64,000 nucleotides of DNA from Mesorhizobium sp. (GTDB lineage Bacteria > Pseudomonadota > Alphaproteobacteria > Rhizobiales > Rhizobiaceae): NCBI RefSeq assembly GCF_016793485.1, contig NZ_JAEULZ010000052.1:1-64000 (forward strand). Direction: 5' to 3'. Position numbers and translations under genes: made by a program. Shown one piece after another: positions 193-30,988 of this stretch. Numbering within the stretch: the stretch's first letter is position 1; each line of letters opens with the position of its first letter. The notes beneath the pieces were generated by a model. The model was given only the letters and a program-made list of their open reading frames with translations. It did not search any database and had not been told where the DNA came from.

Positions 193-203
193 CTGCGATG
201 CAA
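193..203 (+). promoter_or_regulatory. EPS-locus box A (CTGCGATGCAA)
   Basis: The sequence CTGCGATGCAA lies in the 104-base gap between the ugd stop and the galU start, 54 bases upstream of galU. It matches the BTGCRRTGCAV box found nine times in intergenic DNA of this locus. The regulator is unknown. Confidence 0.5.
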
Positions 204-243
204 AAACGGTCAAGGCGAACGCATTGCGCGATCGCGTAGTTCC

Positions 244-1599
244 TTACGACGCGCTGGCCTTCACGCCAAGCCGCACTGGGCTCAGATAGTCCTCGGTCGG
301 CCGGCCGACACCGACATAGCCGAACCCGTGTCCCTTGACCTCGTCCTTGCGGTAGATGTTGCGCAGGTCGACCAGCAAGGGCGTCTTCATCACCTGCTTG
401 AGGCGCTTGAAATCCATAGCGCGGAAGGCGTTCCATTCCGTCACGATCACCAGCGCGTCGGCGTCCTTCGCCGCATCGTAGGGATCGCTGGCGAAGGTGA
501 CGTTCTCCAGCATCGACTTTGCATGTTCCATGCCTTCGGGGTCGTAGGCGGAGATTTCAGCGCCGGCGTCCTGGAGCGCCTGGATAATCGTCAGTGACGG
601 CGATTCACGCATGTCGTCGGTGTTCGGCTTGAAGGTCAGGCCGAGGATCGCGATCTTCTTGTCATCGACATCGCCGCCGCAGGCCGAGACGACCTTGCGG
701 GCGATGGAGCGCTTGCGCGCCGTGTTGACGGCGACCGTCGTCTCGACGAGCCGCATCGGGCTGCCGAAATCCTGCGCGGTCTTGGCAAGCGCCACGGTGT
801 CCTTCGGAAAGCAGGAGCCACCATAACCCGGACCCGCATGCAGGAACTTCGAACCGATGCGATTGTCGAGCCCAATGCCCTGCGCGACCTGCTGCACGTT
901 GGCGCCGGTCTTCTCGCAGAGGTCAGCGATCTCGTTGATGAAGGTGATCTTCATCGCGAGGAAGGCGTTGCCCGCATATTTTATCAATTCGGCCGTGCGC
1001 CGGCCGGTAAAGAGCATCGGCGCCTGATTCAGATAGAGCGGACGGTAGACTTCGGTCATCACTGACTGCGCGCGATCGTCGGAGAGGCCGACAACGATGC
1101 GGTCGGGACGGCGGAAGTCGTCGATCGCCGCGCCCTCGCGCAGGAACTCGGGATTGGAAACGACGGCGACGTCCGCCGACGGGTTTGTCTTCCGGATGAT
1201 CTTCTCGATCTCGTCCCCTGTGCCGACCGGCACGGTCGACTTGGTGACGACGACGGTAAAATCGCGGATCAGCGGCGCGATCGTGCGCGCGGCCTCGTAG
1301 ACGTAGGAGAGGTCGGCATGACCGTCGCCGCGCCGCGCCGGCGTACCAACCGCGATGAAGATGACCTCCGCGCCCGCGACGCCTTTCTCCAGATCGGTCG
1401 TGAACGACAGGCGGCCCGCCTTGACGTTGGCGGCGACGAGAGCGTCGAGCCCCGGCTCGAAAATCGGGATGCGGCCGTTCCTCAACGCCTCAACCTTGCT
1501 TTCGTCCTTGTCGACGCAGACGATGTCATGGCCGAAATCGGCCAGGCACGCGCCCGAGACGAGGCCAACATAGCCGCTGCCTATCATCGTGATCCGCAT
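244..1599 (-). CDS. ugd: UDP-glucose 6-dehydrogenase
   Basis: 451 aa, the usual length for the family. It oxidises UDP-glucose to UDP-glucuronate with two NAD+, supplying a uronic acid for the polysaccharide. The N-terminal Rossmann fold starts with GSGYVGLVSG; the KSTVPVGT segment and the catalytic cysteine in GGSCFPKD (about residue 263) are present. The ATG at 1597-1599 follows a good ribosome site (AAAGGAAG); a TTG codon directly before it is also in frame. Rhizobial relatives are named rkpK or ugd. It lies between galU and the phosphatase gene, all on the minus strand. Confidence 0.95.
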   Translation of the reverse strand: MRITMIGSGYVGLVSGACLADFGHDIVCVDKDESKVEALRNGRIPIFEPGLDALVAANVKAGRLSFTTDLEKGVAGAEVIFIAVGTPARRGDGHADLSYVYEAARTIAPLIRDFTVVVTKSTVPVGTGDEIEKIIRKTNPSADVAVVSNPEFLREGAAIDDFRRPDRIVVGLSDDRAQSVMTEVYRPLYLNQAPMLFTGRRTAELIKYAGNAFLAMKITFINEIADLCEKTGANVQQVAQGIGLDNRIGSKFLHAGPGYGGSCFPKDTVALAKTAQDFGSPMRLVETTVAVNTARKRSIARKVVSACGGDVDDKKIAILGLTFKPNTDDMRESPSLTIIQALQDAGAEISAYDPEGMEHAKSMLENVTFASDPYDAAKDADALVIVTEWNAFRAMDFKRLKQVMKTPLLVDLRNIYRKDEVKGHGFGYVGVGRPTEDYLSPVRLGVKASAS

Positions 1600-1677
1600 C
1601 AAGACTTCCTTTCAACAGTCGGGGCGAAGCCAAAGCTTGGGCGTTCGCATCCCTTTTCTTGCCTAATCTATCTTGTT

Positions 1678-2511
1678 TTACGCCCGCGTTCCATCCGTCC
1701 GCCCTAGCAGCGCGGCACCCGAAGCGTCGATACGCAGGCAGGTCAGGCGATGGGTGGCGTAGGCGCCAGTATCGAGATTGATCCTGTTGTGCCGGAAGTC
1801 CGGCGTGTCAGTCGGGGTGTGACCGTGCACGACGATGGCGCCGAATGATCCGTGATGGTCGAGAAAAGGCTTTCTGATCCACATCAGGTCGTCCGCCACC
1901 TGTTGATCCAGCGGACGGTTTGGCACGACGCCGGCATGGGCGAAGAAATAGGGGCCGTATCTGAAACTCGGACGAAGCGACCGCAGGAACTGCACATCCT
2001 CGAGCGGGATTGCCCGCGACAGCGCCGCGCTGAGGACCGTCTCTCGGGCAGGGTTGACCCCGTAGGAAAGCGCGGTCGCCGCCCCGCCGAAGGCGAGCCA
2101 GTCGCGGTCGGGAATACGCCCGTCGAGAAAGTGGAGGAGCATCGCCTCGTGATTGCCCGCAAGCGGCATGATCCGGATTTGGGTAGCCCGCTTGCGTAAC
2201 AGCGCGATGACAGCCGCACTGTCAGGCCCGCGGTCGACATAGTCGCCGAGATAGACCTCCAGGCGCCGTTCGGCGGGTCGTGCGCTCCAATCCGCGTCGA
2301 TCCGGCCATGCACGTCGCGCAAAAGGTCGGCGCGGCCGTGGATGTCGCCGATCGCATAAATGACCGTGCGCGCGTCGATCGCCGGATAACGCGGACGGAG
2401 CGGGCGTTGCTGCGTCTTGTGCGCCGACAGCCCAAGCCAGTCGCTCAGCCTGCGGCGAAGCGTGGTCCAAGGCGCTTCAGCCCTGGGATACGTAAGAGCC
2501 GAACTTTTCAT
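1678..2511 (-). CDS. PPP-family serine/threonine-type metallophosphatase next to the EPS kinase
   Basis: 277 aa calcineurin-like phosphoesterase. All signature blocks of the PPP family are visible: GDIHG (residues 55-59), GDYVDRG (89-95), GNHE (119-122) and HGHTP near the C-terminus. The fold binds two metal ions and removes phosphate from proteins or small phosphoesters. The chosen ATG at 2511 lies inside the end of the exoP-like gene, giving a 35-base overlap and probable translational coupling. No Wzb-type low-molecular-weight tyrosine phosphatase is seen in this window, so this enzyme may be the kinase's partner; that is inference from position only. An alternative is a diadenosine tetraphosphatase-like activity. 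Confidence 0.82.
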   Translation of the reverse strand: MKSSALTYPRAEAPWTTLRRRLSDWLGLSAHKTQQRPLRPRYPAIDARTVIYAIGDIHGRADLLRDVHGRIDADWSARPAERRLEVYLGDYVDRGPDSAAVIALLRKRATQIRIMPLAGNHEAMLLHFLDGRIPDRDWLAFGGAATALSYGVNPARETVLSAALSRAIPLEDVQFLRSLRPSFRYGPYFFAHAGVVPNRPLDQQVADDLMWIRKPFLDHHGSFGAIVVHGHTPTDTPDFRHNRINLDTGAYATHRLTCLRIDASGAALLGRTDGTRA

Positions 2512-4792
2512 GATGGTAGTAGGAGCTGTTGCCGATGCTGGCGGTGTAGAGACGCAGCGTATTCTCGTCCGCCTTGTTGAGAACGCAACCAATGATCTTC
2601 TGGTTGACGTGCGGCGCGTTGTGCAGCGCGTCCGAAACGGTGGCGATGGAGGTCTCGCCCCATTCCACCACGAAGACGAAGCCGTCGACCGAGCCTGCAA
2701 CTGCCTTCGCATCGATGACTGGCGCCAGCGGCGGCAAGTCAACGATGACATAGTTGTAGGTCTGGCGCGCCGCGGTCAGGAGTTGCGCCATCTTGCCGGA
2801 GCCGATCAGGTCGGTCTTCTGCTCGGCCCCGTCCTTGCCGGCCGCCGGCAGGAATTTCAAACGCTTGGCCTCGTCCGAATAGATCAGGTCGTTGATCGGC
2901 ACGTTGTTGACGAGGAACTCGAACAGTCCTGCCTCCGCGTCCGGGGTTACCTCGCGCGTAAGCGTCGGGCTCCTGAGGTCGGCGTCGATCACCAGCACGG
3001 AGTTGCCTGACGACGCGATCAGTTGAGCGATGTTCATCGACACGGTGGACTTGCCCTCGCCGGGCATCGAAGACACAACGCCGATCACGCGCATGCCGCC
3101 GTCGCCGGGCGCGAAATCGAGGGCGAGCTTCACCGAACGCAGCGTTTCCGCGAAGCGCGACAGCGGCGCCTTGACGACATGCTGAAGAACGCCGAGATCG
3201 CGAGACAGCAGGCGCGTTGACGTTCCTTCCTTGCGTGCGGTGTGAAGTGCGCGGCGGGCCTGGCCGCGCCCGAGCTTGGGCAGGATGCCGAGGCACGGCA
3301 CGCCGAGCACCTGCTCGATCTGGCCGGGCGTGCGGAAGGTCCTGTCCGCCAGTTCGCGACCGAGCGCGAGAAGCAGGCCGAGCGCAAGGCCGGCCACTGT
3401 CGACAACGCGAGCGTGATGACGGTCTTGGGCGAGGATTTCTTCCGCGCCGGCGATGCCTCGGTCAGCACGCGCGCATCGGTGATCGGGAAGGACTGCTGC
3501 TGAAGGGCCGACTTGTAGCGATCGAGGAAGCTCTCGTAGAGATTCTGGTCGGCCTCGGCGTTGCGCTCCAGTTCCCGCAGGCGAACCCGCGCCTCGGCGA
3601 TGTCAGTCGAACGCGCGGTAAAGCCCTCCATCTGTTGAGCCAAGTCAGCTTCCTGCTTGATCGCCACTTCGAGGTCGCTCTTATAGACCTGCTCGATGCG
3701 GCCGAGTTCCCTGAGAATCAGGCCGTTGATGTCTTCCATCTGGCTGCGCGCGCGTTTGGCGGCGTCGTGTTCCGCGCCATAGCGGCGCGCGATGTCGGCC
3801 TCCTGCTGGGCGATGCGCGAATATTGCGCGCGCAACTGGCTGATGACGGGGCTGGAGAGCGAATCGACCACCGAGGCGTCCGGATTGCCCGATGCGATCA
3901 TCTGGGCGATCTGGTCGTAGCGGGCACGACGCGTCGCCGTCTCCTTCTGCGCCTCGACCAACCGCGTCGAAAGCTCGGTCAACTGGGTATCGGACAGCAA
4001 CTGACCGCCGCTGTTGGTGTCGATGATGCCGTTCTGTCGTTTGTACTGCTGGACAAGCTGGTCGGAGGCCACGGCCTTTTCGCGCAGTTCCGACAAGCGT
4101 CCCTCCAGCCAGGTCGAGGCGCGGCGCACGGACTCGTAGCGGGCGTCCAGCTTTTCCTCCAGAAATGCGCTGGCCACCGCGTTGGCGACGGCTGCGGCGC
4201 GATCCGCGTTCTCGGACGTATAGCTGATGCCGATGACGAAGGTGTCGTCGACGCGATCGACGCGCAACCGCTTGCTGAACTCCTCGACGACGAAGCGCGG
4301 AACGCCTTCTTCCTGAATCACCGCCGGCGGCGGGCCAAGCCGTATCATGGAGCGGATGACGCCCATGCCCCGCGTGATGAGTTGGACGATCAGGTTGGGC
4401 GGTCGCCTGAACTCCTCGGCGTCGGCGATATCAAGCTGATTGATGACCGAGAGGGCGATCTTTTCGGAGCGAATGATCTGAAGCTGGCTGTTGACATCCA
4501 CATCGCTGAGGCTTGCCGGCATACCTGATGAACTCTGATCGTTTGCGCCGGCAAGTTGGGCGTTTTCGATGTCGAGATAGACAAGCGCCGTCGAGTCGAA
4601 CATCGGCTTGGTGGTGACGATGTAGAGCAGCCCGACCACGATCATCGCAGCCACGGCGGCGCCGATCAGCAAGGCGCGGCGGCGCAGAATCGCAAGCAGA
4701 TTGGCTATGCTGAGAAGACCGGCCTCTGCCTCGACCGGAGACGACGGCGGTGGCGTGTCCGCCGGCCAATTCTTCTGAAGCTGCACGAGCAT
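2477..4792 (-). CDS. exoP: Wzc/ExoP-type polysaccharide co-polymerase and tyrosine autokinase
   Basis: 771 aa inner-membrane protein controlling EPS polymerisation and chain length. The N-terminal Wzz domain is bounded by hydrophobic segments near residues 40-62 and 457-477, with a long coiled-coil periplasmic part rich in Gln, Glu and Arg between them. The cytoplasmic BY-kinase domain has Walker A PGEGKST near 575, Walker A' VLVIDADLRSPT near 600 and Walker B VIVDLPPL near 682. The last 25 residues hold several tyrosines (YTA, SYYHH, GSY), the usual autophosphorylation cluster. AGGA precedes the ATG. It is followed by an overlapping phosphatase gene and preceded by a spacer with box B. Confidence 0.94.
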   Translation of the reverse strand: MLVQLQKNWPADTPPPSSPVEAEAGLLSIANLLAILRRRALLIGAAVAAMIVVGLLYIVTTKPMFDSTALVYLDIENAQLAGANDQSSSGMPASLSDVDVNSQLQIIRSEKIALSVINQLDIADAEEFRRPPNLIVQLITRGMGVIRSMIRLGPPPAVIQEEGVPRFVVEEFSKRLRVDRVDDTFVIGISYTSENADRAAAVANAVASAFLEEKLDARYESVRRASTWLEGRLSELREKAVASDQLVQQYKRQNGIIDTNSGGQLLSDTQLTELSTRLVEAQKETATRRARYDQIAQMIASGNPDASVVDSLSSPVISQLRAQYSRIAQQEADIARRYGAEHDAAKRARSQMEDINGLILRELGRIEQVYKSDLEVAIKQEADLAQQMEGFTARSTDIAEARVRLRELERNAEADQNLYESFLDRYKSALQQQSFPITDARVLTEASPARKKSSPKTVITLALSTVAGLALGLLLALGRELADRTFRTPGQIEQVLGVPCLGILPKLGRGQARRALHTARKEGTSTRLLSRDLGVLQHVVKAPLSRFAETLRSVKLALDFAPGDGGMRVIGVVSSMPGEGKSTVSMNIAQLIASSGNSVLVIDADLRSPTLTREVTPDAEAGLFEFLVNNVPINDLIYSDEAKRLKFLPAAGKDGAEQKTDLIGSGKMAQLLTAARQTYNYVIVDLPPLAPVIDAKAVAGSVDGFVFVVEWGETSIATVSDALHNAPHVNQKIIGCVLNKADENTLRLYTASIGNSSYYHHEKFGSYVSQG

Positions 4793-4954
4793 CGGGCCGC
4801 GTTCCTGATATTGCGCCGCAGCATAAACTTTCGAATCAGCGACCCCTAAAGCTTTTCCCGACGCCGACCACCGGCATCAAGTCACTGTATTTAAAAGTTT
4901 ATCCTAAACGACCTTTCTGTCCCGTGCCCTTGAACTCACGTTAGCAGAGTTTTG

Positions 4955-4965
4955 CTGCGGTGCAA
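4955..4965 (+). promoter_or_regulatory. EPS-locus box B (CTGCGGTGCAA)
   Basis: CTGCGGTGCAA lies in the 180-base spacer between a glycosyltransferase stop (4973) and the exoP-like start (4792), 162 bases upstream of that start. It matches the BTGCRRTGCAV family of boxes. Confidence 0.5.
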
Positions 4966-4972
4966 GAGAACT

Positions 4973-6118: not shown

Positions 6119-6703
6119 GGCGCGGGCACCCTCACAACAGCTACCCTGCCCGTCCTGTCCGCCAATTGCGGACCCCTGCCCCCACGCAGGTCAAGCGCAA
6201 CGCCACGGACCGGGGACCGGCCCTTCCACAGGATCTGGCTGCATCGACACGACACGTCACACTCCGCTTCAAAGCGCCGTGCCAGCCCCCGTGCAACACA
6301 TGCCCAACCCATGCAGGCGGAATTCCGCTTGCCCCTAAAGGGCAGACAAACCGATGGCTTGTCAACGTGGTCTGTCGAAAGCGACGCAGCCAGGAAGATC
6401 GCGAACTGTTCCAATGCGCGTGTCAGGCTATTCAACAGAACGCCGTGCTGCATTGAAAAATCAGGCGGAATCAAAATCCCGCTTGTGGCCGGCTAAAGAT
6501 GTTCGGCGTACTGTCTACCGCGACAATTTGATCCTATCGCCAAAAAACCTTATTCCGGTCATTTCACAAACGCATTTCGTTCGCTATTCTTTCTTGCGCT
6601 GGATTTTGCACTTTGGGACGGGGTGGACCGCTGCGTGGATATTTTCCACGCTAACCGTCAACCGGAATGGCTGTTTTTGCCGTTCAGGCCAAAGAGCGAG
6701 CAG
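6119..6703. other. 585-base divergent intergenic region, promoter-bearing
   Basis: No credible gene. It separates the minus-strand glycosyltransferase from the plus-strand GH16/RTX gene, so it should hold both promoters. The left part is GC-rich; bases 6500-6620 are richer in A and T. TTGATC (6528) and TATTCC (6551) are 17 bases apart and could be a weak sigma-70 promoter towards exsH. Two degenerate forms of the EPS-locus box lie at 6448-6458 and 6606-6616, each with one or two core mismatches, so they are not counted as real sites. Confidence 0.4.
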
Positions 6704-9515: not shown

Positions 9516-9526
9516 TTGCGGTGCAA
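9516..9526 (+). promoter_or_regulatory. EPS-locus box C (TTGCGGTGCAA)
   Basis: TTGCGGTGCAA, upstream of the putative exoY promoter at 9593 and 307 bases before the exoY start. Full match to the BTGCRRTGCAV box. Confidence 0.5.
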
Positions 9527-9633: not shown

Positions 9634-9644
9634 TTGCATCGCAA
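9634..9644 (-). promoter_or_regulatory. EPS-locus box D (TTGCGATGCAA on the minus strand)
   Basis: Plus strand reads TTGCATCGCAA. Second full copy in the exoY leader, about 14 bases downstream of the putative -10 element. Confidence 0.5.
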
Positions 9645-9832: not shown

Positions 9833-10525
9833 ATGCTAAATGCCGGAAGCCCTTTGGAGAACGCTGCCAGTTCGGCAGCGGATATTGTTAGCGTCGGGTC
9901 TGCGAAATACGCGCCTGGCGGCATCCTCAAAAGAGCCGTTGACATTGCCCTCGCGACCATCGGGATTGCGATCCTGTGGCCGTTGATGCTTATGGTCGCA
10001 CTGGCGATCCGCTACACCGATCCCGGCCCAGCGATTTTCGGCCATGAGCGCATCGGTCTAAATGGCCGGCGCTTCAAATGCCTCAAGTTCCGCTCCATGA
10101 TCATCAATTCCGAGGTGGCGTTGCGCGAGCTTCTGGAACGCGACCAGGCGGCGGCGGCCGAGTGGGCGGCCTCGCAGAAGCTGAAGAACGATCCGCGCAT
10201 CACCAGGCTCGGCCGCATCCTGCGCGAAACCAGCCTCGACGAACTGCCGCAGCTCTGGAATGTGCTGAGGGGCGACATGAGCATCGTCGGCCCGCGACCG
10301 ATCGTTTCCGCCGAGGTCCGGCGCTACGGCAACCACTTCACGGACTATACGGCAACGAAGCCCGGCATCACCGGCCTATGGCAGGTTACCGGACGCAGCG
10401 ACTGCACCTATGAGGAACGCGTCTCGCTCGATGTCGACTATGTGCAGAACTGGTCGATCCTGCGCGATTTCTGGATCATCGCCAGAACCGTGATCGTCGT
10501 GTTTGGCCGCAAGGGAAGTTATTGA
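9833..10525 (+). CDS. exoY: undecaprenyl-phosphate sugar phosphotransferase (ExoY-like, initiates EPS repeat unit)
   Basis: 230 aa, close to the length of Sinorhizobium ExoY. It transfers a sugar-1-phosphate (galactose-1-P in succinoglycan) to undecaprenyl phosphate, the first step of repeat-unit assembly. One N-terminal hydrophobic hairpin (about 33-60) is followed by the bacterial sugar transferase core: KFRSM, the RxxxLDELPQLWNVLRGDMS block, VGPRP, and the KPGITGLWQVTGR segment near the C-terminus. GGAG lies 8 bases before the ATG. It is separated from exsH by an AT-rich regulatory leader and faces a small membrane protein gene convergently. Confidence 0.94.
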   Translation: MLNAGSPLENAASSAADIVSVGSAKYAPGGILKRAVDIALATIGIAILWPLMLMVALAIRYTDPGPAIFGHERIGLNGRRFKCLKFRSMIINSEVALRELLERDQAAAAEWAASQKLKNDPRITRLGRILRETSLDELPQLWNVLRGDMSIVGPRPIVSAEVRRYGNHFTDYTATKPGITGLWQVTGRSDCTYEERVSLDVDYVQNWSILRDFWIIARTVIVVFGRKGSY

Positions 10526-10870: not shown

Positions 10871-11066
10871 CGGTGCCCCTTCCGTTGATCCGAGCGTTAC
10901 TGGGCAGCGATTAATTTTCGCTGAGAAAAGGCCAGATAAGGCCAATCATTGTTCCACTTGGTAGCAGGCGGAGCGGAAAAAGCCAACAAGTTCGTCGAAC
11001 TCCCACAACCTGAGGCTGAACCGGCTCGTCACGGAATATCCGGACGAACGCAAAGGAAACAAGGCA

Positions 11067-11993
11067 ATGCAGATAACGTCGTCACCGGAAGAAGGTTCTG
11101 GCGCACCGTTGTTTTCCATCGTGATGGTAACATTTGCGCGAGATCACCTCGTTCCCGAGACGATCGCGCAGGCGGCCAAGGTGGCCGCCGATCGCCTGCA
11201 CGACGTCGAATTCGTGCTGGTGGACAACAATTCCGACGAGACCGACCGCTCTGCCTTCCTCGCGCCCTTCAAGCGCTGGCGATATGTGAAGCTCGGCTTC
11301 AACAAGGGAGTTTCGGCGCGCAACGACGGTGCGAACGCCGCGCTCGGGACCCACATGATTTTCGTCGACGACGACGCGTTCCTCAACCCGATGGGCGTGC
11401 TCGATCGCTACGAGGCGGCGTTCGCGGCGAACCCCAATTGCGCCATCGTCACGGCCCGCCACATCGACCACGCGACCGGCGACACGCCCCGCGCCTCCTT
11501 CCCGCATACAGACAAGTCATTGCCCAAGGACCGTCCGTTCAAGACGTTCCGGTTTCAGGGCAACGGCTTCGCGCTCCGCCGCTCCGCCTTCGCGAAGATC
11601 GGGCCAATGTCGGAGGACTTCTTCTACGGGCTGGAGGAGATCGACTACGCCTACCGCGTCGTCGATGCCGGCTACGAGATCTACTACGAGCCCGGCTGCT
11701 GGGTCGTCGAATACAACGATCCTGGCGGCCGCAAGCCGAAGAAGGAGGTCGAGGAAATGCGGCTGACCAACAAGCTCATCATCTCGTTCAAATACCTGCC
11801 GGCGGTCTACCTGCCGCTCAACTTCTTGCTGTTCTCAGCTTATGTCTTCTATCTCAACCGAGGTCGCATCAACGTCTTCCGGTCGTTCGGCAACTTCCTG
11901 AAATGGGCGCGCAAGCACCCGGAAGGGCGACGGCCGCTCGGCCAGCCGGCACTCGCCTATATCGAAAGCTGCGGCGGCGCGGTCTGGAAATGA
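11067..11993 (+). CDS. family 2 glycosyltransferase
   Basis: 308 aa. The GT-A fold starts with FSIVMVTFARD, continues with LVDNNSDE, GFNKGVSARNDG and the metal-binding VDDDAF motif, and has the acidic GLEEIDYAYR block typical of rhamnosyl- and related GT2 enzymes. A short hydrophobic stretch near residues 243-265 may anchor it to the membrane. It overlaps the next gene by 4 bases (ATGA), so the two are translated together. Donor and acceptor sugars cannot be read from sequence. Confidence 0.88.
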   Translation: MQITSSPEEGSGAPLFSIVMVTFARDHLVPETIAQAAKVAADRLHDVEFVLVDNNSDETDRSAFLAPFKRWRYVKLGFNKGVSARNDGANAALGTHMIFVDDDAFLNPMGVLDRYEAAFAANPNCAIVTARHIDHATGDTPRASFPHTDKSLPKDRPFKTFRFQGNGFALRRSAFAKIGPMSEDFFYGLEEIDYAYRVVDAGYEIYYEPGCWVVEYNDPGGRKPKKEVEEMRLTNKLIISFKYLPAVYLPLNFLLFSAYVFYLNRGRINVFRSFGNFLKWARKHPEGRRPLGQPALAYIESCGGAVWK

Positions 11994-12940
11994 GCGTGCG
12001 AGCGGCCAGGTTCCTCGCAAGCCTTGCTCTGTTGTCGGGCGTTACTCCGCTCGCCGCCAGCGCCACCGAGCTCGGGGCCTATCGCGGGCCGGGCTGCGAC
12101 GGGCGCAAGGCGATGCGGGTCTTCGAGGATTTCGTCGGCCGCAAGGTCGAGCGCACAGTGGATGCGCTCAACCAGGAGAGCTGGGCCGAGATGAAGTCGA
12201 GCATTCCCTGGATCACCAAGTGCTGGCGCGGCTCCGATATCAAGCTGACGCTGTCGGTTCCGATGCTGCCCAAGGACCGCGACGGTACGCTCGCCGAAGG
12301 GGCCGCCGGCGCCTATGACACGATCTTCATCATGACGGCGCGCGCGCTCATCCAGAACGGTCAACCCGACGCGATCATCCGCATAGGCTGGGAGTTCAAC
12401 GGCGACTGGATGCCGTGGCGGGCGATGGACGATCCTGAAAGCTACAAGGCCTATTTCCGCCGCATCGTCGGCATCATGCGCGATGCGCCGGGTCAGAAAT
12501 TCCGCTTCGAGTGGTCCCCTAATCATGGCCGCAAGGCGATGGACCCGACCGACGCCTACCCCGGCGACGATGTCGTCGACATCATCGGCCAGGATGTCTA
12601 CGCCGAGACGTGGGGGATCGAAGGCATGAGCCCACAAGAGCGCTTCCAATATTATCTCGACCAGCCCTTTGGACTGAAATGGCACCGCGACTTCGCGCAA
12701 GCGCGTGGCAAGGACATTTCCTACCCCGAATGGGGCGTGGGCACGCGGCCCGACGGCAAGGGTGTCGGCGACGATCCCGTCTTCATCGAGGGCATGGCCG
12801 ACTGGTTCGACGAAGTGAAGCCGTTGTACCAGAGCTACTGGGACGTGCACGCGTGGGACTACAACGCCCAAATGTCCGACCGCCAATTTCCGCGCGCGTC
12901 GGAAGTGTTCAGGCAGCGCTTTGGCGTGGGAACCGACTGA
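11990..12940 (+). CDS. secreted GH26-like beta-glycanase
   Basis: 316 aa with a Sec signal peptide (SVRAARFLASLALLSG, cleavage near ATA). The mature part resembles GH26/clan GH-A (beta/alpha)8 hydrolases: GWEFNGDWMPW supplies a likely acid/base glutamate (E135) and SYPEWGVG a likely nucleophile (E247). Such enzymes cut beta-mannans or other beta-linked chains; inside EPS loci they often trim the polymer in the periplasm or outside the cell. The ATG overlaps the stop of the glycosyltransferase before it. It ends 3 bases before the convergent heparinase-like gene. Confidence 0.75.
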   Translation: MSVRAARFLASLALLSGVTPLAASATELGAYRGPGCDGRKAMRVFEDFVGRKVERTVDALNQESWAEMKSSIPWITKCWRGSDIKLTLSVPMLPKDRDGTLAEGAAGAYDTIFIMTARALIQNGQPDAIIRIGWEFNGDWMPWRAMDDPESYKAYFRRIVGIMRDAPGQKFRFEWSPNHGRKAMDPTDAYPGDDVVDIIGQDVYAETWGIEGMSPQERFQYYLDQPFGLKWHRDFAQARGKDISYPEWGVGTRPDGKGVGDDPVFIEGMADWFDEVKPLYQSYWDVHAWDYNAQMSDRQFPRASEVFRQRFGVGTD

Positions 12941-18172: not shown

Positions 18173-18297
18173 CAAATCGCTGGGCGTGGCATAGATCGGA
18201 CGGGTGGCTCGGGGCGCGCGCGTTAACGTAACAGCGGAGCCGAAAGCGGTTTGTACCCCACCCGACACAGCCACGTTGTGCATTGCGGGCGCGCTCG

Positions 18298-19659
18298 ATG
18301 AGCGACGCGACTCAATCCGGATTCAACGACAGACGGCCAGCCGCGCTGCCCGCGGCGGCGCGCGCCGTGCCGGGCGCAATCGATCCGGCGGTCACCCGCC
18401 GTATCGCCAATGTGCTCTGTGTGCATCTCGTGCTGGTCGTGCTGACGCAGAAGCTTGCCTTGCCGATCAGCGGCGATATCCAGATCGCCTTCGCCATGCT
18501 GCTGCAATATGGCGTCTTCGGCATCTTCCTGCTGATGGGGGTGCTGCGCGTCCATCTCATCCGCTCGCTGATGCTGCTCGCCTTCGTCAGCTTCGCGATG
18601 ATCGTGCATGCGGTCTACAACGCGGATGTCGGTTACTCTCCAGGTTCGCTTTTTCTGCTGACGCTGATCCTGGCCATGTACGCCTTCGTCGTGCCGATGG
18701 ACGAGGAAAACTACAATCGAATTCTGAAGACCTTCCAGACCATCGCGGTCGTGGCCTCGGTGCTCGTCTTCGTCAACTGGGGACAGCAGGTTGCCGGGCT
18801 CGGCATGATCAATCTGGAGGACTACATCCCCGACAAGTTCCAGTACATCAACTACGTGTACATGAACAAACTGCGCTGGGACCTCCCCTGGTACAAGCCT
18901 AACGCCATTGTCTTCCTCGAGGTTTCGCACCTGTCGCAATTCATCGGCATGGCGCTGGTGATCGAATTGGCGCGCTTCCGCCGGCTGAAACACGCAGCCC
19001 TCTATGCCGTCGCGCTGCTCAGTTCCTTCGGCGGCACCGGCACGCTGCTCGTCCTCGCCTCCGCGCCCATCCTGATGCTGATGCTGCCGCGCAAATACAT
19101 CGTGGCAGTCGTGCTGGCCGCGCCGCTGCTACTGGTCGGTGCGGCGCAGATCGGCGTGCTCGACAATTTCACCAAGCGCGCGACTGAGTTCACCACCGAG
19201 AAGAGCAGCGGCTACAACCGGTTCGTGCTGCCTGCCGAAACCTCGGCGATGGCGCTTGAGCGCGACGGGATGGGCGGGCTTCTGGGCAGCGGCGCGGGCA
19301 GCATTCCGGCCGGCGACCCGACAAAGGGTGGCGTCAACGGCTTCGCCTGGAGCCCCTACGCCAAGGTCATCTACGAATACGGCCTGATCGGGTTCCTGAT
19401 GTGGCTGCCGCTGACGGTCTACGCCATCTTCAATCGCGGCATTCCCTTCATCATAGGCTGGATCGTCTTCCTGCAGTACAACTTCCTCAACGGCGCGCTC
19501 AATGTGCCGCTGCACACGGTCTATTGCTATGTGCTGGCTGCGGGCTACGTCATGATGCCAGTGGCGAAGTCGCCGCCGGCAAGCGCGGCCGTCAGCCCTG
19601 TTTCGGCATCGCCAGCGCGCCGATCGCATTCTCCTTCACGATCGGGAAGTAGGCCCTGA
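18298..19659 (+). CDS. Wzy/ExoQ-like EPS polymerase (O-antigen ligase family membrane protein)
   Basis: 453 aa with about ten to eleven hydrophobic segments from residue 40 on and a large periplasmic loop in the second half (about 260-360), the layout of Wzy and WaaL proteins. It would join repeat units in the periplasm under control of the ExoP-type co-polymerase. The last 40 residues are a Ser/Pro/Arg-rich tail without family character. That tail is encoded on the strand opposite the end of the acyltransferase gene (68-base convergent overlap). Start at ATG 18298; no strong ribosome site is visible. Confidence 0.83.
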   Translation: MSDATQSGFNDRRPAALPAAARAVPGAIDPAVTRRIANVLCVHLVLVVLTQKLALPISGDIQIAFAMLLQYGVFGIFLLMGVLRVHLIRSLMLLAFVSFAMIVHAVYNADVGYSPGSLFLLTLILAMYAFVVPMDEENYNRILKTFQTIAVVASVLVFVNWGQQVAGLGMINLEDYIPDKFQYINYVYMNKLRWDLPWYKPNAIVFLEVSHLSQFIGMALVIELARFRRLKHAALYAVALLSSFGGTGTLLVLASAPILMLMLPRKYIVAVVLAAPLLLVGAAQIGVLDNFTKRATEFTTEKSSGYNRFVLPAETSAMALERDGMGGLLGSGAGSIPAGDPTKGGVNGFAWSPYAKVIYEYGLIGFLMWLPLTVYAIFNRGIPFIIGWIVFLQYNFLNGALNVPLHTVYCYVLAAGYVMMPVAKSPPASAAVSPVSASPARRSHSPSRSGSRP

Positions 19660-21677: not shown

Positions 21678-22982
21678 TTACCTTTTCTCCGACCGGACCA
21701 GATCCCATGGCTCTATTCTCGCGGAAAACACGATCGAGATGGCCGAAACCGCTCCGAAAAATGCGGCGTATATCCACAGTAGCGCCCCCGGCTCCGCCCC
21801 TTGGAGCACGACAAACAGGGCGAAGGCCGCCGCCCCAGCGAAGGCGAAGCGCGCGACGCGGCCGATAAGGGCGGCGGCGTTCAGATAGGACAGGAACAAC
21901 GTCGCGGGCTGATAGAAGCCGCTGATCAGCACGATCAGCGAGGCGACGGGAATGGCAGCGGCAGGCACCACGTTGTTGTGACCCAGCAGCAGCTCGAAGA
22001 TCGCTTCGCCGAAGAACAGGACGGCAAGCGCCGGCACCGCGCTCGCGGCGGCGCAGAGCCCTGTCACCAGTCTCAACCCGCGTCGCGCATTGTCCATTTC
22101 ACCGCCCAGCATCTGGCGGCTGATGCGCGGCAGGAAAATCTCGGCCAGCGTGCGCGTGCCGGCCATCGCCAGCCGGCAGACCTTCATCACGCTGTCGAAC
22201 ATAACCAGCGCCGGTCCGACGCCGAACAGAGCTGTGACGACCGCGTAGGGCGAGTTCAGCACCAGAAGCTCGGAGAGCGCGAAGACCAGCGACGACCAGA
22301 AGCGCTTCAGGTGGGCCAGGACGCCGATGCGCGTCGCCGGCCGCGTCACCAGCGGCCAGATCTCCGACTGCCTGAGGAGCCTCAGCAACACCGCCATGAA
22401 GACGAGCACGACGACCGTCGTCGCCACGCCGAACAACAGGAAGCTGCCCGTCGCCCAAAACAGGCCGAGTGCGGCCAGGAAGAGCAGGCGGCGGATGATC
22501 GAGACGAAGGCGAATTGCCGGCCGAGATCGGCGGACCAGACGGTCGACTGCAGGTCGAACGACCAATAGGCGGTAAACAGGCAACCGAAGAGATAGAGCG
22601 CATTGCCAAGATAGCGCTCTGGATCGTCGATCCCGAAGAGAGCGGGAATCAGGAAGGACAGGATAACGAGCAGGGCTGCCTGCGCGCCTAGGAAGCCGAA
22701 TATCTCGCCGCCGGCCTTGCCGCCGACGCCAAGCGCACCCGGCCTGAGCGCCATGTAGTTGGCACGGCCGATCGCCTGGTCGATGGGCTGGACGTAGAAG
22801 GAGACGGCCGTCAGAAACACGACTTCCGCATAGCGCTGCTGGTCGAGGCCACGCGCCAGCACGAGAAGCTGCACCAGCGTGTAGCCGAGGTTTAGCGCGG
22901 TGTGCACGATGTGCAGCGCGCCGAAGCCGGTCGCCAACCTGACGACCCGCCTTGTCCTGCCGTGCAGCACCGCATCGCTCAT
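21678..22982 (-). CDS. Wzx-like polysaccharide/lipopolysaccharide flippase (second of two)
   Basis: 434 aa, about 12 hydrophobic segments across the whole length, with charged short loops (for example FLPRISRQMLGG) as in MOP-family flippases. It is not a close copy of the flippase at 14619-15929. It belongs to the minus-strand run wza-like, glycosyltransferase, flippase, acyltransferase. Two flippases in one locus may mean two lipid-linked substrates or a divided role; sequence alone does not decide. Confidence 0.8.
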   Translation of the reverse strand: MSDAVLHGRTRRVVRLATGFGALHIVHTALNLGYTLVQLLVLARGLDQQRYAEVVFLTAVSFYVQPIDQAIGRANYMALRPGALGVGGKAGGEIFGFLGAQAALLVILSFLIPALFGIDDPERYLGNALYLFGCLFTAYWSFDLQSTVWSADLGRQFAFVSIIRRLLFLAALGLFWATGSFLLFGVATTVVVLVFMAVLLRLLRQSEIWPLVTRPATRIGVLAHLKRFWSSLVFALSELLVLNSPYAVVTALFGVGPALVMFDSVMKVCRLAMAGTRTLAEIFLPRISRQMLGGEMDNARRGLRLVTGLCAAASAVPALAVLFFGEAIFELLLGHNNVVPAAAIPVASLIVLISGFYQPATLFLSYLNAAALIGRVARFAFAGAAAFALFVVLQGAEPGALLWIYAAFFGAVSAISIVFSARIEPWDLVRSEKR

Positions 22983-24335: not shown

Positions 24336-25487
24336 TCAATCGACCACATTGCGGCCTGCGGAGACCGCAACGGTCGTCGCCCCGACGACTTCGATGAACT
24401 TCAGATATTTCACAATGGCGGCGTTGCCGATGTAGAGCACGTCCTTGTTCCGCACCGGGAAGGACGAGGCCAGGAAGAAGCCGCCTGGATCGCGAAGGTT
24501 GAACTGGTAAATGACCGGAATCTCGTCGCCCTCGAACTTTTCGACCGGCACGCCGAGCTTGCGCGCGGTCTTGCGGTCCTCAATGCGATAGACCAGCACC
24601 GCGCCTGGATTGGCGCGGTTGTCTTGCATTCCACCCGCCTTGCCGAGCGCGTCGGCCAGATTGATCGTCTCGTCGGCGAAGTCGTAGCGGCCGTTCTCGT
24701 TCGAGGCGCCGAATGCCGTGAAGGAATGCGCCTCGCGATAGACATAGATCGTGTCGCCGGGCAGCACATGGATGTTGTTCGACGGCTCGCGCACCAGCCG
24801 CTGAAAGTAGACAGTGGCCTTCTTTTTGCCGCGCTGCAGCGTGACGTAGGTCTCGTAGCCCGGCTGTTTCGGACCGCCGGCCCGCGCGATGACGTCGAGG
24901 ATGCGCTCGCCGCTGGAGTTGAGCTGGAATTTTGCTGGCGAATTGACGTCACCCAGAACGCTCACTTCAGACGAGGTCTGGCTCTTCACGGCGACGACCG
25001 CCTGCGGTTCGATGGCGCGGCTGGCCAGTCGCTGCTCGATCACCCGCTGCACGGCTGCAGGCTCCTGTCCGGCGGCGCGGACCGACCCTGCATAGGGAAC
25101 GGAAATGTTGCCCGCACTGTCCACCTTCTGGTCTGGCAGGTTGACGAAATTACCGGCGCTGTTGGTTGATTCGAGAGGGATGAAAAGCCCGCCGGGGCTG
25201 GCCTCGAAGATGGTCACGCCGACGACATCGCCCACACCGATCCGGATGCTGGACGCGCCGGGCCCGCGAAACCCGCCAAGGCCCGCCTCCGGCTGGGACT
25301 TCTCCACCACGCTGATGATTTCGGGCGTGACGTTGACCACCGCATGAGGCGTGCCCGCAGGGGGATTCACCGCCGCATAGCTGCTCGCGGTGACGTCAGG
25401 CCCGCCCGAGGGAAGAGCGGTGCAGCCGGAAATGATGAAAACGCAAAGGGTCAGGATGGATACGGGGGTCCAAGTCAACTGATACAA
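24336..25487 (-). CDS. Wza/ExoF-like polysaccharide export outer-membrane lipoprotein
   Basis: 383 aa. A lipoprotein signal ends in the lipobox ISGC (Cys at about 22). The mature part carries the Poly_export domain (RIGVGDVVGVTIFEA to the AGNISVPYAGSVRAAG segment) and two SLBB-type repeats (SSEVSVLGDVNSPAKFQL; later NLRDPGGFFLAS with the KDVLYIGN end). It forms the outer-membrane channel for EPS, working with the ExoP-type protein. The start appears to be TTG at 25487, with AGAGAGG 5 bases upstream; the nearby ATG is out of frame, so translation may start weakly. Box G lies 49 bases upstream. Confidence 0.88.
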   Translation of the reverse strand: MYQLTWTPVSILTLCVFIISGCTALPSGGPDVTASSYAAVNPPAGTPHAVVNVTPEIISVVEKSQPEAGLGGFRGPGASSIRIGVGDVVGVTIFEASPGGLFIPLESTNSAGNFVNLPDQKVDSAGNISVPYAGSVRAAGQEPAAVQRVIEQRLASRAIEPQAVVAVKSQTSSEVSVLGDVNSPAKFQLNSSGERILDVIARAGGPKQPGYETYVTLQRGKKKATVYFQRLVREPSNNIHVLPGDTIYVYREAHSFTAFGASNENGRYDFADETINLADALGKAGGMQDNRANPGAVLVYRIEDRKTARKLGVPVEKFEGDEIPVIYQFNLRDPGGFFLASSFPVRNKDVLYIGNAAIVKYLKFIEVVGATTVAVSAGRNVVD

Positions 25488-25535: not shown

Positions 25536-25546
25536 GTGCACCGCAC
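25536..25546 (-). promoter_or_regulatory. EPS-locus box G (GTGCGGTGCAC on the minus strand)
   Basis: Plus strand reads GTGCACCGCAC, 49 bases upstream of the wza-like start. Identical to box E over 14 bases on the opposite strand. Confidence 0.5.
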
Positions 25547-25860: not shown

Positions 25861-25871
25861 TTGCACTGCAG
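25861..25871 (-). promoter_or_regulatory. EPS-locus box H (CTGCAGTGCAA on the minus strand)
   Basis: Plus strand reads TTGCACTGCAG, 84 bases upstream of the prsD start. Confidence 0.45.
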
Positions 25872-25954
25872 CATCATGCGGAGCCGCGATGTGCGGCTGG
25901 CGATGGGTGTTGCGCCTTTCTCGACGACCTTGCTGGGGGCGGACGAGGATTTTT

Positions 25955-27694
25955 ATGAAGGCTGGCGCACGGCTTTCCTTTCCATCCGGACGACTGGAAT
26001 CGCAGCCTCGGGACCGGGCCGGCAATGCCGTCGTGGCACTTCGTCGCGGTTTCGTCGGCCTCATCGGCCTGTCCGCTGTCTTCAACCTGTTTATGCTGAC
26101 CGGCTCCCTCTTCATGCTGCAGGTTTATGACAGGGTGCTGACAAGCCGAAGCGTGCCGACGCTGGTGGCGCTTTTCCTGCTTGTCACCGGCATTTACGTT
26201 GCGCTTGCTGCGCTCGATACGGTCAGGCTGCGGCTGTCGACCCGAATCGCCGACTGGTTCGGCGAGGAAATCGGCTCCGCGGTCGCGGGTCTTGCCCTGG
26301 CGTGGCCGGTGTTCGGAGGTGAACGAACGGCCAGTCCGATACAGGATTTCGATCGCCTGCGCGGCTTCATCGGCTCGCCAGCCGCCATCGCTCTAAGCGA
26401 CCTGCCGTGGTTGCCGATTTACCTCGCCGTCGCCTTCATGTTTCATCCGCAGCTTGGCGCCCTGGCGCTTGCCGGCGTGCTTATCCTGTTCGGGCTAGCC
26501 GTGATCGGCGACCAGCTGGCGCAAACGCCCGTGAGCGCCGCCAACAACGCCGCTGCACGGCGCTCCAGATTGCTCGCCGTTGGCGAGCATACGGCAGAGA
26601 CAATCGCTGGCCTCGGCATGCGCGATGCCTGGCTGCGACGATACGAGCAGGCCGACGAGGCGTTGCGCGCGGCCGGGCGCGAAGCCTCCGACCGCATGGC
26701 CGTCTTCGTCGGCGCATCGCGCGGCATCAGGCTCCTCCTCCAATCCGCATCGCTCGCCCTCGGGGCATGGCTTGCACTGCAAAACGAGATCACGCCCGGC
26801 ATGATCATCGCGGTGTCCATCATTACGGCGCGCGCGCTCGCTCCGGTCGAACAGGCGATCGGCCACTGGCGCGCTTTCGTCTCGGCGCGCCAGAGCTGGG
26901 CGAGGCTTCGTGGCCAGATCGGCTCTGCGGAAAAAACGGACGAGCAGCGAACGCGCCTGCCGCGGCCGAAATCGTCCCTCGAAGTCGCGGACCTGTCTGT
27001 CGCCACGCCCGGGACGGACGGGCTTCTGCTGAAGGGCGTCAACTTCGCGCTGGACGCAGGCGGCAGTCTCGGGGTGATCGGTCCAAGTGGCGCGGGCAAA
27101 TCGACGCTGGCGCGCGCTTTGGCCGGCGTGCTTGCCCCTGCCGGCGGCAGCATCCGGCTCGACGGCGCGGAACTCTCGCACTGGCGGCCCGATCAGTTCG
27201 CACGTTATGTGGGCTATCTGCCGCAGGACGTGCATCTGTTCGACGGCACGGTGGCGGAGAACATCGCGCGGCTCGCAACCAATCCCGATCCGGGTGCGAT
27301 CATCGCGGCTGCGGGCAAGGCAAACGCGCACGACCTGATCGCCAGGCTACCCGATGGCTACGACACCCGGCTGGGCCAAGGCGGCGTGATGCTTTCGGCC
27401 GGGCAGAGGCAGCGAATCGGACTGGCGCGGGCGCTGTTCGGCTCGCCGTTCCTTATCGTGCTCGACGAGCCAACCGCTGCGCTCGACGCCGAAGGGGACG
27501 AAGCCCTGCGCAAGGCGGTCGAGGACGCGCGCGCCGCACGTTCGATCGTCATCGTCGTCGCGCACAGGCCCAGCGCGATCGCCGGCTGTGAGTGCCTGCT
27601 GGTGCTCTCCGAGGGAAGGCAGGCCGCTTTCGGCACCCGCAGCGAGATCCTGCGCGAAAGCGGCAGAGTCGCGCCAAGGGCGGCGGCATCGTGA
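25955..27694 (+). CDS. prsD: type I secretion ABC transporter (PrsD-like permease/ATPase)
   Basis: 579 aa. Six membrane segments in the N-terminal half (about 20-320) are followed by an ABC ATPase domain: Walker A GPSGAGKST, signature LSAGQRQR and Walker B LIVLDEPT. There is no C39 peptidase domain, which fits the RTX-toxin/PrsD/AprD class. It powers export of RTX proteins straight to the medium; the likely substrate is the GH16/RTX protein at 6704-9379. The ATG at 25955 has GAGG 6 bases upstream; longer in-frame starts have no good site. It overlaps the next gene by 4 bases (GTGA). Confidence 0.93.
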   Translation: MKAGARLSFPSGRLESQPRDRAGNAVVALRRGFVGLIGLSAVFNLFMLTGSLFMLQVYDRVLTSRSVPTLVALFLLVTGIYVALAALDTVRLRLSTRIADWFGEEIGSAVAGLALAWPVFGGERTASPIQDFDRLRGFIGSPAAIALSDLPWLPIYLAVAFMFHPQLGALALAGVLILFGLAVIGDQLAQTPVSAANNAAARRSRLLAVGEHTAETIAGLGMRDAWLRRYEQADEALRAAGREASDRMAVFVGASRGIRLLLQSASLALGAWLALQNEITPGMIIAVSIITARALAPVEQAIGHWRAFVSARQSWARLRGQIGSAEKTDEQRTRLPRPKSSLEVADLSVATPGTDGLLLKGVNFALDAGGSLGVIGPSGAGKSTLARALAGVLAPAGGSIRLDGAELSHWRPDQFARYVGYLPQDVHLFDGTVAENIARLATNPDPGAIIAAAGKANAHDLIARLPDGYDTRLGQGGVMLSAGQRQRIGLARALFGSPFLIVLDEPTAALDAEGDEALRKAVEDARAARSIVIVVAHRPSAIAGCECLLVLSEGRQAAFGTRSEILRESGRVAPRAAAS

Positions 27695-29007
27695 CGACGC
27701 AGCACGGCATGGCTCCCAGCCGACGCTCGGTGACGCTGGAACTTATCCTCGGCGCGCTGATCTGCGGCGTTCTGCTTGGAGGCGTCGGGGGCTGGGCAGC
27801 GACCACCAATCTCGACGGCGCGATCGTTGCGCGTGGCCAGCTCGCCGTCAGCGGCAACGTCAAGCAGGTGCAGCATCGCGATGGCGGCATCGTCGAACGC
27901 ATCCTCGTGCGCGACGGGATGCGGGTCGAGGCCGGCGACGAGATGCTGCGCCTCGACGACACGGCGCTGCGCGGCAACTACGCCATCGTGGAAGCCCAAC
28001 TCGTCGATCTCGTCGCAAAACGACGGCGCCTTCAGGCCGAGCAACTCGGCGTAACGGACATGGCGGATACCACCCCGTTTACGGCGCTTGACGGGCTCGA
28101 CAGCGAGCTGTCGCGCGCGCTAGCGGCCGAAACCGCCTTGTTCCAGGCGCGCCGCACCGCGATCGCCGGGCAGAAGGCCGGCATCGCCGAGCAGATCAAC
28201 CAGCTCAAGGCAGGCGTTGGCGGGCTGGATGCGCGGCTAGGCGCGACGCGCGAGCAAGTGCGGCTGATCGGTCTGGAAGTGAAAAGCACGCAGTCGCTGA
28301 TGGACCAGGGCCTTACCACGCAACGGCAACTGCTGACCCTGCAGCGCGCGCAGGCAGAGCTCAACGGCACCATCGGGCAGATCGAGACCGAGATCGCGCA
28401 ATCCAACATCGCCATCAGCCGCAGCGGGCTGGAAATCTCGCAGATCGACCTCGTACAGCGCGAACAGGCCGAACGCGACCTCCGCGAGGTCGATTCGCGC
28501 ATCGCCGAACTCATGGAGCGCCGTATCGCCGCGCGCGACCAGCTCGACCGGCTTGTGGTGCGCGCGCCGCAGACCGGTCTCGTCAGTCAGCTCGCCGTGC
28601 ATACGATCGGCGGCGTCATTGCGCCGGGCGCGACCGTCGCATTGATCGTGCCCGATGGCGACCAGCTCGTCGTCGAGGCCCGCGTGCGCCCGACCGACAT
28701 CGACATGGCTTCCGTCGGGCAGAGTGCGGAGATCAGGCTTCAGACCGTCGACGCGCGCCTGCTACCGCCTTTCGACGGCAAGGTCACATCGCTCTCTGCC
28801 GATGTGATCGTCCAGCCGCAAACGCGGGACGCCTATTATCTCGCACGCATCACGATCGCCGACGAGGACCGGTTGCGCAGGGAACGCGCCCTGGTCCCGG
28901 GCATGCCGGTCGAGGTGTTCCTCGCCACCACGGCAAGGCGGACCGCCTTGCAATATTTGCTTGGCCCGCTGATGGAGCCGCTGTCCCACGCCATGCGCGA
29001 AGGCTGA
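27691..29007 (+). CDS. prsE: type I secretion membrane fusion protein (PrsE/HlyD family)
   Basis: 438 aa from a GTG at 27691 that overlaps the prsD stop, with AAGGG upstream. One membrane anchor near residues 13-37, a lipoyl half (GNVKQVQHRDGGIVERILV), a long coiled coil (about 100-300), the second lipoyl half (VVRAPQTGLVSQLAVHTIGG) and a beta-barrel with the family's PGMPVEVF segment near the end. It links the inner-membrane ABC transporter to an outer-membrane TolC-type channel. No tolC-like gene is in the window, so that part must come from elsewhere. Confidence 0.93.
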   Translation: MTTQHGMAPSRRSVTLELILGALICGVLLGGVGGWAATTNLDGAIVARGQLAVSGNVKQVQHRDGGIVERILVRDGMRVEAGDEMLRLDDTALRGNYAIVEAQLVDLVAKRRRLQAEQLGVTDMADTTPFTALDGLDSELSRALAAETALFQARRTAIAGQKAGIAEQINQLKAGVGGLDARLGATREQVRLIGLEVKSTQSLMDQGLTTQRQLLTLQRAQAELNGTIGQIETEIAQSNIAISRSGLEISQIDLVQREQAERDLREVDSRIAELMERRIAARDQLDRLVVRAPQTGLVSQLAVHTIGGVIAPGATVALIVPDGDQLVVEARVRPTDIDMASVGQSAEIRLQTVDARLLPPFDGKVTSLSADVIVQPQTRDAYYLARITIADEDRLRRERALVPGMPVEVFLATTARRTALQYLLGPLMEPLSHAMREG

Positions 29008-30070: not shown

Positions 30071-30083
30071 CCTTTGTTCTTGG

Positions 30084-30935
30084 TCAGGCCGCAACCGCCG
30101 GCCTGGCTGCCAGCGCCGCGACCGCATCCTCCAGATGGCGCACGCTCGACGTGCCCAGCACCACCGATGTCACGCAGGCGCGATCCGCGGCCTGTCGCAG
30201 CGCCCTTGCAGGGGGTACGCCCGGCTGGAGGCGCATGACCTCTCGCGCCAGCACGCCGATCCGACGCTTGCCAATCGTTTCCGACAAACCTGATTCCATC
30301 GCCGCGTCGATGACATCGAGCGGCAGTTCGAGAAGCTCGGCGCCGGGAATGGCGAGCGCCGCCTCAAGTGCCGGCACGTCGTCGCATGAGATGCCGAAAT
30401 GACGAACTTTCCCAGCTTTCTTCAGCGCCGCCAGCGCCTCCCCGACCTCGGGGCGAATCGCCGATGCGGGAGGACTGTGCAGCAAAAGCGCATCCAGATG
30501 ATCGAAGCCGAGCCGGCGCAGACTGGCCTCTGCCGCCTGCGTGATATGAGCCGGCGAAAAGTCGGTCCCGAGATTGCCGTCACGCTGGCCGACGACAGCG
30601 CCCTTCGCCGCTTTCGCCTTGGCCAGCAGCGGCTTCAGGATCGGCTTCAACGGCCGCATGAGCTGCATCTTACGGGAAAATTTTTTGCCGGCTTTCGTGA
30701 CCACGAATGCGCTGGCGCGCCGGCCTTTCAGCAGTCGGCCGATCTCACGTTCGCTGTCGCCCTGTCCATAGATGTCGGCCGTGTCGAAAAGGTTGACGCC
30801 CAAGTCCAGCGACCGCTCCAGAAGCGCCCTTATTTCGCGCATCGGCACCTTATTGCCCAGCGAGCCGATCTTGCTGCAGCCCAGCCCCAGAACAGGCAAG
30901 CCCTTGTTATCGTTTCCGAATTCGCGTCGCATCAT
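30084..30935 (-). CDS. aldo/keto reductase
   Basis: 283 aa, typical of short bacterial AKRs. The catalytic tetrad is visible: Asp and Tyr in NLFDTADIYG, Lys in VVTKAGKK and His in LLLHSP. An NADP-binding end follows (VVLGTSSVRHLED). It reduces an aldehyde or keto sugar; the substrate is unknown. GGAGA precedes the first of two adjacent ATG codons. It is divergent from the GMC oxidoreductase, with box I between them, which suggests it belongs to the EPS set. Confidence 0.88.
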   Translation of the reverse strand: MMRREFGNDNKGLPVLGLGCSKIGSLGNKVPMREIRALLERSLDLGVNLFDTADIYGQGDSEREIGRLLKGRRASAFVVTKAGKKFSRKMQLMRPLKPILKPLLAKAKAAKGAVVGQRDGNLGTDFSPAHITQAAEASLRRLGFDHLDALLLHSPPASAIRPEVGEALAALKKAGKVRHFGISCDDVPALEAALAIPGAELLELPLDVIDAAMESGLSETIGKRRIGVLAREVMRLQPGVPPARALRQAADRACVTSVVLGTSSVRHLEDAVAALAARPAVAA

Positions 30936-30977
30936 GGGCAGTCTCCTTGCTCAACACGGCGCTCTTCCATCACCATG

Positions 30978-30988
30978 CTGCATCGCAA
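30978..30988 (-). promoter_or_regulatory. EPS-locus box I (TTGCGATGCAG on the minus strand)
   Basis: Plus strand reads CTGCATCGCAA, 43 bases upstream of the aldo/keto reductase start and 109 bases before the GMC oxidoreductase start, in their divergent spacer. Confidence 0.48.

Follow-up and report, generated by a model that had tools for sequence, protein, structure and literature searches.

The closest described counterparts of the system considered here are the regulons of PhaR (AniA), a transcriptional repressor that binds the storage polymer polyhydroxybutyrate (PHB) and in two rhizobia connects exopolysaccharide (EPS) genes with it. For Sinorhizobium meliloti, repression of exoY, exoL and exoH by PhaR is reported, an effect that is strongest if PHB synthesis is blocked; EPSI is restored when phaR is inactivated in a phbC strain (PMC12542648). 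The consensus given there is WNWD2NYGCRNYGCRNH2WNW, with gel shifts at exoY, exoH, exoL, phaP1/2 and other promoters. In Bradyrhizobium diazoefficiens USDA110, a site of the form TGCRNYGCASMA was derived from DNase I footprints and aligned bound promoters (PMC6201568); a phaR mutant is reported to make about twice the EPS, and the promoter of an operon that includes exoZ is bound by PhaR (PMC6201568, PMC10888616). The breadth of conservation of the EPS-PHB coupling was left open in the S. meliloti report (PMC12542648). Here we describe a palindromic box that recurs at an EPS locus of a Mesorhizobium sp., in the first 64,000 nucleotides of contig NZ_JAEULZ010000052.1 (assembly GCF_016793485.1), hereafter the window. 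Ten copies of this box are very probably PhaR operators, through which free PhaR would repress the EPS genes at low PHB and from which these genes would be released by PHB granules. The operator match, a PhaR gene, boxes at PHB genes and conservation support this assignment, and binding, repression and release by PHB are extrapolated from S. meliloti and Bradyrhizobium.

Results

A palindromic box in the spacers of an EPS locus

The box is a symmetrical palindrome, TGC-RNY-GCA (TGC-N3-GCA), of which the core TGCRRTGCA, the form in which it was originally noticed, is a one-sided reading. Of the ten exact copies of this core in the window, nine fall within EPS-locus spacers. All nine had been listed in a sequence-only reading of the window, to within one base; that reading did not list the tenth exact copy, at 26773 within the prsD gene, and missed a box at 4812 (TGCGCCGCA), a strong one 19 bp ahead of exoP that the symmetrical definition adds. 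It saw no copy in the spacers past 31 kb, and a pattern count confirms that the exact core does not occur there; the 14-base stretch that it saw in opposite orientation in the boxes at 18098 and 25537 is directly visible as TTGTGCGGTGCACA. With the box at 4812 included, ten boxes are spread over six spacers that head nine genes of one EPS locus.

In 100 dinucleotide shuffles of the window, the core occurred 3.43 times on average and at most 9 times, against the 10 copies observed, which puts the chance expectation nearer 3.4 than the two or so copies first estimated. The genome-wide density predicts 1.95 copies per window (Poisson P = 4e-5). Nine of the ten copies are intergenic, although intergenic DNA makes up only 9-11% of the window (binomial P at most 2e-8). 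For such counts, a script called genes in the window and in flanks of up to 2.5 kb around the copies elsewhere (736,689 bases); the caller missed the galU tail (1-139) and a polymerase-like open reading frame (ORF) at 18283-19659, and a second count takes both as coding. The whole genome (5,213,963 bases) holds 159 copies of the core, compared with 67 of the pattern read backwards. Seventy of the 159 are intergenic, as against 16.4% of the examined DNA, and 66 of these 70 precede a gene. When twelve comparison patterns that depart from the TGC-RNY-GCA form were pooled, 65 of their 426 sites were intergenic (15%), with single patterns ranging from 0 to 33%, the highest value coming from 9 sites.

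Match to the PhaR operator

We scored the window with a matrix made from 25 S. meliloti sites of gel-shift-bound promoters (PMC12542648); it includes no site from the window's organism. The ten highest-ranking positions are the nine boxes noted earlier and the box at 4812, with scores of 15.8 to 25.6, and the best score in the reversed window is 9.2. Next in rank are 24830 inside the wza-like gene (14.6), 49040 in a spacer (14.4) and 6449 (12.4). When the S. meliloti EPS sites were removed from the matrix, the nine boxes were still all in the top 12 of the window, and the reversed window reached 11.2. None of 100 column-permuted matrices had more than three of its top ten positions on boxes. 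Across the examined 737 kb, 56 of the 63 positions scoring at least 12 are intergenic, whereas the reversed control gave one of seven. Forty-one of the 159 exact cores score at least 12, nine of these in the EPS locus, and the AT-rich arms fit the matrix better in intergenic than in genic copies (P = 1e-11). ChvI, an early candidate for the regulator, was set aside when the PhaR consensus was seen to fit.

The first box (TGCGATGCA, 194-202, plus strand, score 19.7) lies 55 bp before a minus-strand reading frame with its start at 139, a putative galU. Two plus-strand boxes precede exoP, at 4812-4820 (19 bp before the gene, score 19.1) and at 4956-4964 (TGCGGTGCA, 163 bp, 17.6). A second copy of TGCGGTGCA lies 307 bp before exoY (9517-9525, plus strand, 16.2), and a minus-strand box lies 189 bp before the same gene (9635-9643, 22.7). 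The spacer between the Gfo/Idh gene and the polymerase-like ORF contains one box on the plus strand (18098-18106, 18.2) and one on the minus strand (18163-18171), the latter with the best score in the window, 25.6. The remaining three are on the minus strand: at 25537-25545 (15.8), 49 bp before the wza-like gene; at 25862-25870 (22.8), 84 bp before prsD if its start is at 25955 or 18 bp if at 25889; and at 30979-30987 (17.5), in the spacer from which the aldo/keto reductase and GMC oxidoreductase genes diverge. By the matrix, the boxes at 25537 and 9517 are the weakest of the ten.

Three lower-scoring positions were also noted. The spacer site at 49040-49048 (TGCAGCGCA) has good arms, is located 36 bp ahead of a gene predicted to encode a solute-binding protein (49085-50215) and could be another PhaR target, one beyond the EPS locus. 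The site at 24830-24838, within the wza-like gene, has a counterpart in wza of the related genome G001 (12.5) and none scoring at least 11 in a second relative, G003; it may be a side effect of protein conservation. A degenerate box at 6449-6457 (TGCATTGAA), some 320 bp ahead of an RTX-GH16 glycanase gene with its called start at 6776, has no counterpart scoring at least 11 in four relatives (G001, G003, G041 and G136).

PhaR and other box-bearing genes of the genome

The genome encodes one PhaR (PF07879, E = 5.5e-29; TIGR01848, 145.4 bits with a cutoff of 109.45); a comparison of the protein with solved structures returned no match at E 0.01. The spacer between phaR and a divergent thiolase gene, phbA by position, carries two boxes (L182). 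Three more are located between a phasin gene and a divergent gene (L143, C21:302017-302093), two of them 19 bp apart, and the divergent gene matches the histidine kinase PdhS below the cutoff. Among the genes adjoining sites that score at least 12, a part of which was inspected, boxes precede two PHB depolymerases, one of the esterase type (L209) and PhaZ (L175), as well as pyruvate carboxylase, citrate synthase and sdhC. They also precede a carboxyl transferase, a dihydroxy-acid/6-phosphogluconate dehydratase, several transporters, RimP and further genes without an obvious connection to PHB.

The sequence-only reading had treated the box as the mark of an EPS regulon that would unite synthesis and export with type I secretion and two redox enzymes. 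This union is well supported by the motif and its conservation, but the box is not peculiar to the locus, since 61 of the 149 copies outside the window are also intergenic, several of them before PHB and central-carbon genes. That reading had also named genome-wide commonness as evidence against itself. With 61 other spacers and 89 genic copies, the box is indeed common in part, although its copies in spacers suggest a broad regulon.

Conservation in relatives and in the family

Orthologous loci were taken from two genomes of the same genus (G001 and G003) and two of a second genus (G041 and G136), with ExoY identities of 75-83%. The box pairs at exoP and exoY have counterparts in all four, and the boxes at wza, prsD and the aldo/keto reductase-GMC pair in both relatives whose stretch includes those genes (G001 and G003). 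The galU-side box is found in two of three (G041 and G136), the G003 contig ending before it, and the pair between the Gfo/Idh gene and the polymerase-like ORF in one of four (G003). Most boxes are therefore kept, so that a lack of conservation, which had been proposed as a ground for rejecting the regulon, is not what the relatives display. In the aligned spacers the boxes form conserved islands, whose central bases drift within RNY. The box-to-box distance is 142-145 bp at exoP in five genomes and 117-118 bp at exoY in four genomes, with 107 bp, about one helical turn less, in the fifth. In G001, G041 and G136, the wzy homologue is on the other strand with a strong box (15.8-23.1) about 1.3 kb past it, which in G001 lies 75 bp before a gene called unk2.

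We then compared 31 exoY-like loci, namely the best-scoring 30 of 76 matches (E 1e-45) in 151 genomes of the family together with that of G003. A box scoring at least 12 is present within 900 bp upstream at 26 of these 31 loci, compared with one of 31 for downstream DNA and two of 31 for reversed upstream DNA. When the window and its four close relatives are excluded, 21 of 26 loci have an upstream box. The boxes at 26 of the 31 loci examined suggest that EPS-PHB coupling is common in the family. Several exoY-like loci (L243, L254, L259 and L260) have upstream boxes in tandem, spaced 18-19 bp, as at S. meliloti phaP1.

Box abundance and the presence of PhaR

PF07879 was found in 134 of the 151 family genomes, whose sizes range from 1.1 to 8.4 Mb. 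For a comparison of co-occurrence, eight PhaR-less and 24 other genomes were picked by hand; G003, outside the PF07879 scan set, was entered as PhaR-bearing without a search for phaR. A strict symmetrical pattern occurs on average 3.0 times per PhaR-less genome and 7.2 times in the others, a modest difference (one-sided P per Mb = 0.005) whose P value is to be discounted, since this was the third pattern tried. Excluding both EPS-locus genera, with five genomes, lowers the mean of the others to 5.6 (P = 0.02). Genes like exoY are present in none of the 17 PhaR-less and in 55 of the 134 PhaR-bearing genomes, a contrast that is confounded by genome reduction; among PhaR-less genomes of 3 Mb or more the count is 0 of 7, which compared with all 134 gives P = 0.04.

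Genes of the locus and its surroundings

The minus-strand gene at 2477-4792 encodes an ExoP-like chain-length/export protein with Wzz, GNVR and AAA_31 domains (TIGR01005 above cutoff), and that at 9833-10525, on the plus strand, an ExoY-like priming sugar transferase (PF02397, 3.5e-66). A Gfo/Idh/MocA oxidoreductase gene (16998-18014, minus strand, start from the gene caller; PF01408) is followed by the polymerase-like ORF (18283-19659, plus strand), which is Wzy by position only; this ORF has an 89% identical homologue in G003, and scans of Pfam and NCBIfam gave no match. Further along are genes for a Wza-like polysaccharide export protein (24336-25487, minus strand; PF02563, SLBB), for a PrsD-like type I secretion ATPase and a PrsE-like adaptor (25889-27694 and 27691-29007, both plus strand; TIGR01842 and TIGR01843, each above cutoff), for an aldo/keto reductase (30084-30932, minus strand; PF00248) and for a GMC oxidoreductase (31037-32770, plus strand; PF05199).

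Family scans also identified at the locus a UDP-glucose dehydrogenase, GT2 glycosyltransferases, an RTX-bearing GH16 glycanase, a heparinase-like protein, a Wzx-like flippase, an acyltransferase-SGNH protein and an endonuclease/phosphatase-like protein. The PrsD/PrsE-like system may plausibly secrete the RTX glycanase. A GH26 match comes from the frame 10949-12940, which the gene caller divides at 11990. Two more genes, at 15943-17001 and 21678-22982, are kept in relatives with 67-90% and 76-79% identity, the second having no Pfam match. Among ten proteins scanned from 34-64 kb are ABC transporter and solute-binding proteins and three mandelate racemase/enolase-like proteins (41054, 51117 and 54592), which suggests sugar-acid catabolism next to the EPS locus.

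Discussion

If the ten boxes are PhaR operators, as we consider very probable, free PhaR would occupy them when PHB is scarce and hold down galU, exoP, exoY, the Gfo/Idh and polymerase-like genes, the wza-like gene, prsDE and the aldo/keto reductase-GMC oxidoreductase pair. With carbon in excess, PHB granules would form, PhaR would move to their surface and the boxes would be freed, allowing EPS to be made along with phasin and PHB depolymerase. The box matches the docking site of PhaR, so EPS output is probably tied to the amount of carbon stored as PHB. It could further be imagined that PhaR acts as a master switch throughout the family and makes the entire EPS programme, beginning with UDP-glucose supply and ending with export and with secretion of an enzyme that cuts EPS, depend on the PHB store, partly through operator pairs at near-fixed spacing (exoP and exoY) that might be looped together by an oligomeric PhaR; this wider proposal is tentative and on balance probably goes too far.

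Several observations weigh against the assignment to PhaR. The majority of exact cores, 89 of 159, sit inside genes. G001 has no box beside its UGD gene on the galU side, the pair between the Gfo/Idh gene and the polymerase-like ORF is missing in G001, G041 and G136 (G041 has one weak site, 11.3), and five of the 31 exoY-like loci have no upstream box (L240, L246, L253, L258 and L264). By genome-wide counts, neither TGCRNYGCASMA nor the 21-base consensus distinguished genomes with PhaR from genomes without it. One genome in which no PhaR was found, G034, nevertheless has ten strict-pattern sites, and without it the PhaR-less mean falls from 3.0 to 2.0; a genome of the same genus carries PhaR, and the G034 assembly may have a gap.

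A different reading accepts PhaR as the protein that binds the boxes and has it activate, or do no more than fine-tune, some EPS promoters, with EPS and PHB competing for carbon rather than increasing in parallel. Some box-bearing genes are reported to fall in the Bradyrhizobium phaR mutant (PMC6201568), and the S. meliloti report allows that the coregulation might not be strictly conserved and cites an Azospirillum phbC mutant that makes more EPS (PMC12542648). Here the distance from a box to the nearest start codon downstream varies from 19 to 307 bp, which indicates that not all boxes are simple promoter blocks. However, phaR mutants of S. meliloti (in one medium, PMC12542648) and of Bradyrhizobium (PMC6201568) are described as making more EPS, and the S. 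meliloti motif is found mainly at genes under repression, only seven activated genes carrying it (PMC12542648), so that we regard this reading as decidedly unlikely. Another regulator with a TGC-N3-GCA palindrome might instead read the EPS boxes, their likeness to the PhaR site being incidental. Palindromes of the TGC-RNY-GCA form are still present in PhaR-less genomes, and binding of PhaR to these boxes is a prediction from the DNA, but core and arms both fit the S. meliloti matrix, the matrix without EPS sites performs nearly as well, and the same site stands in the genome's own phasin, depolymerase and phaR spacers; such a regulator is highly improbable. A chance cluster or composition effect, in favour of which the genic cores may be counted, is opposed by the shuffles, by the reversed, permuted and other-pattern controls and by conservation in relatives, and its probability is practically negligible.

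Assignment to PhaR gives a motif without a name a likely regulator and yields a testable statement, namely that EPS output follows the PHB store via PhaR. The motif would allow EPS loci coupled to PHB to be predicted from sequence, which bears on the use of such bacteria for PHB or EPS production.

PhaR operators of other species are similar, those of Paracoccus denitrificans and Rhodobacter sphaeroides being reportedly TGC-rich as here, with P. denitrificans PhaR binding the phaP and phaR promoters. To our knowledge, no EPS targets have been described for PhaR in these two species. In the open-access literature searched, a direct link between PhaR and EPS promoters appears in two reports (PMC12542648 and PMC6201568), and no report of PhaR boxes across a whole EPS locus or across the family was found. 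B. diazoefficiens PhaR recognizes TGCRNYGCASMA, a form shared by the boxes here, and the excerpts name one EPS operon as a demonstrated direct target, compared with the reach over a whole locus predicted here (PMC6201568, PMC10888616). The S. meliloti PhaR regulon includes EPSI (exo) and EPSII (wga/wge) promoters, and the palindrome, its arms and the exoY box are as in the window; boxes at phasin, PHB depolymerase, gltA and sdhC and a single PhaR protein are common to both, and the tandem boxes of phaP1, 18 bp apart, resemble the phasin boxes 19 bp apart in our genome (PMC12542648). The PhaR switch on exo genes is already known from S. meliloti, and the box is not a new one. PhaR binding has been demonstrated in that species, whereas here the sites are predicted. 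The boxes in its table belong to exoH, exoL, exoY, wgaA, wgeA, wgeH and exoF3 (PMC12542648), unlike the ten described here, which include those at galU, the wza-like exporter, prsD and the aldo/keto reductase-GMC pair. What is new is the predicted reach over six spacers and nine genes, covering UDP-glucose supply, priming, chain length, polymerase, export, type I secretion and redox enzymes, together with the recurrence of the boxes across the family.

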